From a virus: a DNA stretch of 38,125 nt. Every line of letters begins with the position of its first letter. Within the stretch, counting starts at the first letter, position 1. This document shows, in pieces, positions 11,039 to 28,132 of the stretch. The position numbers and the translations under genes were made by a program. The stretch lies in IMG/VR virus record IMGVR_UViG_3300025736_000077, positions 1-38,125 of that record. One strand, written 5' to 3'. A model generated the notes under the pieces. That model ran no database searches. It was not told where the DNA came from and saw only the letters and a program-made list of their open reading frames with translations.

Positions 11039-11890
11039 TTATTTATTTAGAACGGTAAATGCTGAGGCAATCGCTGGCTGGCCTGCTACTCTCTTTACAA
11101 ATCTAATAACAGTCTCATCATATCTAAATCTGTCATGTATTGAGGAGTCAACTTTTATTCCTCCCTTATCTCCAATGTAGTAATAATTCAAATCAGCAAG
11201 AATAATGTCTCCAGTGGTTCCAAGGGCTGGAAGTTTCTCTGTCATAAGAACGGGTTTGCCTTGCACTATTGGAACAATCTTATCTCTAAGATTGGCCATA
11301 AACAGAGCAATCCCTGATGTGCCTTCGTTTCCGATAGTCATCAACTGACCCATACCTGCCTTAGTAGTTAACCAGACAGCATTAGCGTCTGCCCAAGCAG
11401 GATGTCCAACATACATGTCAATTATGTCTTCAATCTTAATCTTTGCACTTGTATCTCTTGTAACAACATTTATTCCGGCAGCATTGATTATTCCCAAAGG
11501 TTGACCCATTCCTGTTCCTCTCATAAACCTATAGTCCTCTTCGTAAGCGATAATCTCACTGAACAAGGACACAAGGTAGTTTGCGAGGTTTACAGCAGAA
11601 TCTTCAAGTACTTCATCGGAAGCAGGAACTAATCCAATCATCTTCTTTGCCTGTAAAACTATTTTACCGAAAGCTGGTTGACTTTCTGTCTTTGAAGCAC
11701 TCTCTTCAGCCCAATAAACATCAGCTCCACCAAAATTCTCTGAAGATTGGTCAAGCTTAGGTAGGGTTTTTGAAAGTCTGGTCATCGGGAATATCCTCGC
11801 ACGAGGTCTGATAAGAGCTGCTTCAGTAGCATATCTAACTACTTCGGCTTGAAACTCATCGGGGACGAGGAATCCTCCTTCGGTGTCATC
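11039..11890 (-). CDS. Major capsid protein, exon 2 (HK97 fold)
   Basis: This is the C-terminal 283 residues of the capsid protein. It begins DDTEGGFLVPDEFQAEVVRY, the conserved GG-x-LVP-x-E-F segment that follows the N-terminal delta region in HK97-type capsids. It also has KKMIGLVPASDEVLEDSAVN and the FMRGTGMGQPLGI motif. An in-frame TAA lies just upstream, and only a TTG could start it alone. Spliced after exon 1, it continues in phase as ...ALNEG-DDTEGG, giving 414 residues, normal for this family. The protein forms the icosahedral shell. Confidence 0.9.
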   Translation of the reverse strand, partial: DDTEGGFLVPDEFQAEVVRYATEAALIRPRARIFPMTRLSKTLPKLDQSSENFGGADVYWAEESASKTESQPAFGKIVLQAKKMIGLVPASDEVLEDSAVNLANYLVSLFSEIIAYEEDYRFMRGTGMGQPLGIINAAGINVVTRDTSAKIKIEDIIDMYVGHPAWADANAVWLTTKAGMGQLMTIGNEGTSGIALFMANLRDKIVPIVQGKPVLMTEKLPALGTTGDIILADLNYYYIGDKGGIKVDSSIHDRFRYDETVIRFVKRVAGQPAIASAFTVLNK

Positions 11891-12030
11891 CAATTATGTT
11901 ATCGTGGCTTTTTTAATTACCACTTCTTACGATTATTCGTAAGTTCGGACTATATCTTTATCTGTTTTAACAAACAAAAAAAGTAGTTTGTTAACTACCT
12001 CATATACATAGTTTATCTTTATTTTTTCTT

Positions 12031-12759
12031 CTATAAAATTGACATACCTTTAAGTAAAGGTTTAGTCAAAACAAGTAGGGTTTCTCTTGAATATATTTCT
12101 CTAAACTGTTTTACTGTTTCTTGATGTCTATCATGAAACCAACCCTTAATCTCTATCCATCTATTCCAATCTTGAATCCAGAAGTCAGGGGCATAAGTTC
12201 TATCTTTTAATTCAAATCTTTTGGGCTCATATTCCCATTTTAGATTTTTTCTATCAAGCCATCCAGCAAACTTTATCTCGTAAGATGAACGCATCCATAC
12301 TTTAGTTCTGTCTTTTCTAATATACCAATCACCTTTTCCGTGAAGTGAAGGTTTTCCATACCGTCCATTAAGTTTTCCTAATCTACCTACTTTTTTTCTT
12401 GTTTCTGGATGCTCTATATAATACCGTTCCCTATATTTACTTTCATCCTTATGCCAACAATCACGACTACAATAATTATATCTCTTAACATCTTTCCTCT
12501 TAATTTCTTTCTTTTTCCCACAAAACGAACAAGTTATTTCTACTAATCCACCTTTATAGTTGGGATTATTCTTTCCTTTGAATATAACTTGGTGTGCCTT
12601 ATTCCTACACTCATAAGAACAATAACTTCCAGAACCAGCATCATAATTACTCTTTTTAATCCATTTTCTTTTTCCACACTCAAGACATTCAAACAAAACC
12701 TTAAATCCTCCAGCATTACTTTTGCTCTTTTCTATTTTTATTAGTTTGCGTTTATCCAT
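12031..12759 (-). CDS. Intron-encoded PD-(D/E)XK homing endonuclease
   Basis: This 242-residue protein lies in the P8 region of the capsid intron. The first ~110 residues hold three Cys-pair zinc motifs (CLECG with CSYEC, CSFCG with CSRDC) and a linker GKNNPNYKGG. The last ~100 residues carry a PD-(D/E)XK nuclease core: SSYEIKFAGWLDRKNLKWEY, then TYAPDFWI and WIEIKGW (D...E-x-K). I chose ATG 12759 because a consensus promoter ends 8 nt upstream. The longer TTG-initiated frame at 12795 would start inside the -35 box. It should cut intronless capsid genes and drive intron spread. Confidence 0.85.
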   Translation of the reverse strand: MDKRKLIKIEKSKSNAGGFKVLFECLECGKRKWIKKSNYDAGSGSYCSYECRNKAHQVIFKGKNNPNYKGGLVEITCSFCGKKKEIKRKDVKRYNYCSRDCWHKDESKYRERYYIEHPETRKKVGRLGKLNGRYGKPSLHGKGDWYIRKDRTKVWMRSSYEIKFAGWLDRKNLKWEYEPKRFELKDRTYAPDFWIQDWNRWIEIKGWFHDRHQETVKQFREIYSRETLLVLTKPLLKGMSIL

Positions 12760-12766
12760 TACTTTA

Positions 12767-12795
12767 ATTATAGTATTTTCAAAAAGGCATGTCAA
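12767..12795 (-). promoter_or_regulatory. Consensus sigma70 promoter for intron endonuclease
   Basis: Both boxes match the full consensus: TTGACA at 12795-12790, a 17-nt spacer, and TATAAT at 12772-12767. The nuclease ATG at 12759 is 7 nt downstream of the -10 box, so the transcript should start at or next to the ATG with no room for a ribosome-binding site. Confidence 0.85.
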
Positions 12796-12984
12796 GTCAA
12801 TTTTACTATGTATATGAAGTTTTAAATGAACAGATAATCGGAGCTCGTGGAGGGATTATTGTTGGGACTCACCCTCTAGTCTCTACACCTTCCCAGAAAC
12901 TTATACCCTTCTGGGCTTGGCTCGGTATTGTCCTTTTTAGGAGTTCCACCGAATTCACCGATTTTATTGAGAGCTATAACACTA

Positions 12985-13377
12985 ACCCTCATTCAGAGCT
13001 TTTATCAAGCTCTTTGGTATTCCATTCCTTGCCAGAGATTTCATATCCTCCACAAAGCTTATCATCTTTCCAGAAAGTTTTACAAAAGGTCTTTTTGACC
13101 TTAAGTAAGAATCAGTTTCCATTACTGATCTTTCAAGAGTAGGATCCTCCTTATGAAAGACAAGAGATTTCTTAACGGGATTCTCGTGAATCTCCTTAAG
13201 AGCTGCCTCAATCTTCTTTCCAACAATATTTTCAATCTTTTTCAATGCCTCTGCATCTTCCTCTGGAGTCTCCGGAGTCTCAGGATTTTCAGGAGTTTCT
13301 TCCTCCCCTTCCTTTAAAACATAACTTGCTTCAACTTCTACTATGGTTCCGTCTTTCTTTCTTATTTTTCTTTTCAT
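12985..13377 (-). CDS. Major capsid protein, exon 1
   Basis: These 131 codons encode the N-terminal delta-type region. A basic start (MKRKIRKKDGTIVEVEASYV) is followed by a Pro/Glu/Thr linker, a coiled-coil-prone helix (AEALKKIENIVGKKIEAALK) and the segment SLARNGIPKSLIKALNEG that normally precedes the GG-x-LVP motif. Without splicing the frame stops at TAG 12984-12982, one codon into the intron. The ATG overlaps the protease stop as ATGA. The N-terminal part is probably removed by the prohead protease encoded next to it. Confidence 0.9.
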
Positions 13378-28104: not shown

Positions 28105-28132
28105 ATTATATACCTTTAAGATACTATGTCAA
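28105..28132 (-). promoter_or_regulatory. Main early promoter
   Basis: TTGACA at 28132-28127, a 16-nt spacer and TATAAT at 28110-28105, both full consensus. The leader to the initiator-like gene at 27994 is about 100 nt and holds the interleaved stems. The shared 20-bp box begins 5 nt upstream. Confidence 0.85.

Follow-up and report, generated by a model that had tools for sequence, protein, structure and literature searches.

Group I introns of the T4 type, present in the td, nrdB and nrdD genes, belong to subgroup IA; their core includes a P7.1/P7.2 element, and the open reading frame (ORF) of an endonuclease, such as I-TevI, is placed in a peripheral loop with a promoter of its own. A cyanobacterial group I intron encodes the PD-(D/E)XK homing endonuclease I-Ssp6803I, for which, to our knowledge, no Endo I-like segment, NUMOD3 or zinc modules are known. 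The homing endonuclease F-CphI, of cyanophage S-PM2, is resolvase-like and carries the T4 Endo VII motif (PMC6083498). Group I introns are already known in capsid genes. In the mycobacteriophage LittleE, RT-PCR and N-terminal sequencing demonstrated that the capsid-gene intron is spliced (Pope et al. 2013; PMC3706429), and in the lactococcal phage Tuc2009 (NC_002703) the major head gene, mp4, contains a group I intron with the ORF of an HNH endonuclease.

The DNA analyzed here, referred to as the window, is a 38,125-base IMG/VR virus record that carries portal, head protease, capsid and tail genes on the minus strand; all the features of the window described below are on this strand. Its major capsid gene carries an insertion of 1094 nt (11891-12984) that, with a probability of about 0.93, represents a mobile group I intron, IA-like in its P7.1/P7.2 stem, that encodes a homing endonuclease. 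This reading is supported by the full intron core, the U-G pair at the 5' splice site, a P10 pairing, the terminal G, the exact capsid reading frame, the empty sites of the homologues and the anatomy of the nuclease.

Exon 1 (12985-13377) contributes 131 codons, which encode an N-terminal delta-domain-like region in the joined ORF, and exon 2 (11039-11890) contributes 283 codons that match the Phage_capsid family (PF05065, E 3e-49). Joining 13377-12985 to 11890-11039 yields a stop-free HK97-type capsid protein of 414 residues, and in the unspliced frame the first three nucleotides of the intron are TAG. An earlier note on this DNA had placed the interruption at 11891-12984, between ALNEG and DDTEGGFLVP; these coordinates proved exact, and homologues from 51-72% identity downward show the same protein without the insert. 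The closest of these (L143, L144 and L146-L148) have 51-72% identity in the aligned regions and are uninterrupted across the junction; the alignment of exon 1 with L143, which is 72% identical, runs across it, and in L144 the junction without the insert is ALGEDDDTAGGFLVPEEF. Many more distant capsid homologues are likewise uninterrupted at this point. A one-piece alignment over the junction was obtained for 150 of the 160 homologues fetched (73/80 viral and 77/80 genomic loci), and in the remaining seven viral loci the reading frame stays open at this point. The insertion lies four residues upstream of the motif GG[FY]LVP, whose first G and whose P are retained without exception even at 21-33% identity; such a highly conserved coding junction, as described in the note, is what would be expected of a homing site. 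Two contigs (L157 and L167) seemingly carry two capsid homologues each, since in each of them tblastn gave two matches that span the junction or lie close to it.

The TAG that exon 1 meets directly after the junction, together with an in-frame TTG in exon 2, would also fit a capsid gene that is truly split into a delta/scaffold-like peptide and a capsid protein initiated at TTG 11893, with no splicing involved. However, no evident ribosome-binding site precedes this TTG and the homologues examined are all fused, for which reasons a separate TTG-started protein was discarded; the split gene would moreover leave a full group I core, a correct P1, P10 and a terminal G unexplained, and we regard it as highly improbable.

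The intron termini have the pairings that define group I splice sites. The end of exon 1 (UGAGGGU, 12985-12991) pairs with the internal guide GCUCUCA (12968-12974) to form a P1 of seven base pairs, whose last exon base is the U of the U-G pair; this was the longest candidate in the scanned region. A P1 of at least six pairs arises by itself in approximately 6% of shuffled sequences, and it is therefore taken as supportive and not as proof. The P10 pairing, read by hand, comprises five pairs between GUUAU of the intron (12976-12980) and AUGAC of exon 2 (11889-11885), and the last base of the intron is G11891.

The group I assignment was evaluated with covariance models. At E-value level, the Rfam model RF00028 matched the 5' half (12994-12756, 39.3 bits, E 3.6e-8) and the 3' half (12017-11926, 21.9 bits, E 0.006), so that the two ends of the insert are covered, on the minus strand and in the right order, which is the outcome of the Infernal-type check proposed in the earlier note. 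At the curated gathering cut-offs the Rfam scan gave no match in the window, and each half scored below 50 bits, presumably because an ORF of 729 nt separates the two halves. A second model, R1, was built from 15 other viral introns with the sequence of the window left out; it matched the 5' core (12966-12800) with 82.4 bits (E 3e-24) and the 3' half (11992-11944) with 13.7 bits. The viral introns used for comparison were collected by an exact core pattern, and the compact ones were aligned. In the resulting alignment of 21 distinct rows, compensatory changes were observed in P3, P4 and P7.2, and canonical pairs in register amounted to 85% for P3, 98% for P4 and 78% for P7.2, as against at most 46%, 59% and 55%, respectively, when the partner strand was slid. 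P7 was kept out of this covariation test because its 5' strand belonged to the search pattern and was thus invariant by selection.

The individual helices could be located as follows. P3 is formed by AAUCGG (12958-12963) and CCGAUU (12841-12836), and P4 by UUCGGU (12948-12953) and ACCGAG (12926-12921); the P6a hairpin CCCAGAA...UUCUGGG (12892-12915) is present in the fold and in the alignment. P7 pairs GACUA (12877-12881) with UAGUC (11948-11952) according to RF00028, the fold and the alignment, its 3' strand being preceded by J8/7 and included in the second match of both RF00028 and R1. Between P7 and the 3' strand of P3, the stem GAGGG...CCCUC (12850-12876) corresponds to a P7.1/P7.2 element that aligns and covaries with 20 other viral introns (e.g. 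GGCGG/CCGCC in L104), and on the basis of this stem the intron appears to be IA-like. P8 pairs AUCUGUU (12829-12835) with AACAGAU (11966-11960), as seen in the sequence and in the fold, and the P9 hairpin CUUACGA...UCGUAAG (11926-11943) was found with RF00028 and in the fold. When the ORF was removed, the unconstrained minimum free energy fold of the intron yielded P1, P4, P6, P8, P9 and a helix of 15 bp around the position of the ORF, formed within P8 by 12805-12819 and 12012-11998. This near-perfect helix flanks the endonuclease ORF and would join the halves of P8 in spite of an insertion of 0.8 kb. All the elements named in the earlier note (P1 with its U-G pair, P3, P4, P6, P7, the P7.1/7.2-like stem, P9 and the terminal G) were thus recovered, but the endonuclease ORF, its promoter and P10 had been left unmentioned there.

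Like this phage, LittleE combines a group I-type intron and a homing endonuclease ORF in its major capsid gene; in both, exon 1 ends in U, the intron ends in G, and the insertion is located in the same conserved N-arm region. In contrast, a protein alignment places the LittleE insertion (GG|YAVP) six codons (18 nt) downstream of the one described here (NEG|DDTEGGFLVP), which indicates that two different introns occupy the same conserved capsid segment. The ORF of LittleE is also on the opposite strand and encodes a nuclease of another family, and its core matches R1 weakly (15.8 bits). Tuc2009 differs from this phage in the capsid sequence, the insertion site and the nuclease family. The T4-type introns share the general layout of the intron in the window, whereas they differ in the host gene, the nuclease family and the promoter, which here has the sigma-70 consensus.

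The putative homing endonuclease is encoded inside P8 (12031-12759), and has 242 residues from its ATG or 254 residues from a TTG at 12795. The protein (P0002) contains two zinc-ribbon-like motifs of the type CxxC...CxxxC, at residues 37 and 89, as well as a NUMOD3-like stretch (GKNNPNYKGG). It matches phrog_9019 (E 6e-14); its N-terminal half matches the HNH family phrog_1271 (E 2.5e-9), and its C-terminal domain matches PHROGs of Holliday junction resolvases and endonucleases (E 6e-14). This nuclease domain retains the five catalytic positions of T7 endonuclease I (E, E, D, E and K), and the corresponding motifs appear in the right order, i.e. SSYE (SxxE), WEYE, APDF (PDF) and IEIK (EIK). 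The score against PF05367 was 15.0 bits, below the curated cut-off of 29.1, for which reason we designate the protein as T7 Endo I-like, outside that Pfam family. The AlphaFold model has a mean pLDDT of 60.6 and is confident in the nuclease domain only. Foldseek ranked Bax1 above T7 Endo I; the two together were returned with probabilities of 0.90-1.0 and E-values of 0.009-0.14 (0.90-0.97 and 0.05-0.14 for T7 Endo I), and the sequence search against the PDB gave weak support for T7 Endo I. Since Foldseek returned both Bax1 and T7 Endo I, the modelled domain is likely to be a PD-(D/E)XK nuclease of the T7 Endo I type. I-Ssp6803I is also intron-borne and of the PD-(D/E)XK superfamily, and neither the PDB sequence search nor Foldseek detected it as a relative. 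F-CphI resembles this nuclease in that a phage domain of the Holliday-junction-resolvase type is used for homing, but carries the T4 Endo VII motif instead of the PD-(D/E)XK fold of T7 Endo I. The location of the ORF within the intron and the presence of modular domains of DNA-binding type (the CxxC motifs and the N-terminal half related to phrog_1271) are traits of homing endonucleases, and point to this function for the product of the ORF; it is mainly this nuclease that leads us to consider the intron as mobile.

Relatives of the nuclease were found in other viral records. One of them (L003, identical to L224) is a protein of 382 residues (1805-2953) that scores 26.6 bits against PF05367, and is the only one with a significant match to NUMOD3 (E 9e-10). 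It consists of helix-turn-helix, NUMOD3, T7 Endo I-like and zinc-ribbon parts, and its gene directly follows that of the terminase large subunit. No group I core was detected by the Rfam model in this 12-kb record, and hence this nuclease is possibly free-standing. Other T7 Endo I-like ORFs, in L243/L244 (2153-3127) and in L254 (2501-3103), are located immediately upstream (at most 100 nt) of group I cores that score 68.6 and 66.5 bits with Rfam, and 100.6 and 103.8 bits with R1, respectively. The L244 ORF contains several NUMOD3-like PWNKG repeats. The scan of genome contigs gave no confirmed relative, and a partial literature search retrieved no paper describing homing endonucleases of the T7 Endo I type. 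We tentatively suggest, at somewhat less than even odds, that these proteins form a separate lineage of homing endonucleases that has not been described so far, in which a T7 Endo I-type (Holliday-junction-resolvase-like) catalytic domain is combined with modules of the NUMOD3, zinc-ribbon and helix-turn-helix types. Such a lineage would parallel the Endo VII-type F-CphI family and would occur in several phages and group I introns that are unrelated to one another; in the present phage the nuclease would be made early, from a promoter of its own, with the host gene being late.

The intron itself contains a sigma-70 promoter with the consensus TTGACA-17-TATAAT (12767-12795, 12/12 matches), which precedes the ATG of the endonuclease by 7 nt. 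The window contains two perfect sigma-70 sites, both on the minus strand, where 0.05 would be expected by chance. The second one (TTGACA-16-TATAAT, 28105-28132) is just upstream of the ORF at 27994-27380. Given that a consensus promoter directly precedes its ATG, the nuclease is probably transcribed separately, independently of the late capsid transcript. A hairpin followed by a T run after the ORF (about 12000-11975) was evaluated as a possible terminator and rejected, as it is A+U-rich and was not called by the scan.

From these sequence features we infer how the element would splice, when its nuclease would be transcribed, what this would cut and how the intron would spread. The late capsid pre-mRNA would undergo self-splicing at 12985/12984 and 11891/11890, through transesterification initiated by guanosine, to direct the synthesis of the 414-residue protein, and the in-frame TAG, as the first codon of the intron, would halt ribosomes before they reach the ribozyme. 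The ORF in P8 would be transcribed apart, from the sigma-70 promoter within the intron; the endonuclease would then cleave capsid genes that lack the intron, at or close to the DNA encoding GGFLVP, and repair of the cut gene would copy the intron in. The gene that this nuclease is predicted to cut is essential and late, and the intron endonuclease of PhiPA3 has been proposed to act in interference competition between phages (PMC11620839). A nuclease acting mainly to cut the capsid genes of co-infecting rivals, as opposed to purely selfish homing, nevertheless seems unlikely here, as homing and interference are compatible with each other and no co-infecting rival is known.

The distribution of the intron bears on whether it is still mobile. 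Besides the window, the intron was found in one further record, of 17 kb, whose overlap with the window is 100% identical and which therefore adds no independent support for conservation. Among 120 viral stretches that have a matching core, no case of a capsid gene interrupted by it was seen, and the intron core was absent from the 80 capsid loci checked. In the capsid scan of genomes the best matches, 33-38% identical, were scattered across very different phyla and did not fix the host. A once-mobile intron that still splices, but has lost endonuclease homing and is only inherited vertically, would agree with its presence in a single virus (two identical records) among approximately 160 capsid homologues; nor is there a close intronless DNA allele against which recent homing could be judged, given that no empty site close at the DNA level was found and the nearest capsid is 72% identical in protein. 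Against this, a reading frame not under selection should degenerate, and that of the nuclease is intact, with 5/5 catalytic positions and a perfect promoter; vertical inheritance alone is accordingly considered improbable, and an intron with an active homing endonuclease is preferred.

With capsid-gene introns on record, the details that look new are the T7 Endo I-type nuclease, the private promoter, and a site 18 nt from that of LittleE. The capsid segment around GGxLVP again attracts mobile introns, here in an uncultured phage. The analysis suggests that homing has drawn on phage resolvases of the T7 Endo I type, as it has on Endo VII, which makes the intron nuclease a compact candidate homing enzyme. 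Annotation pipelines would likely label a capsid gene of this kind as split or truncated. As the earlier note had held, head formation would require splicing of this RNA, and a very abundant late protein would in this way depend on a ribozyme.
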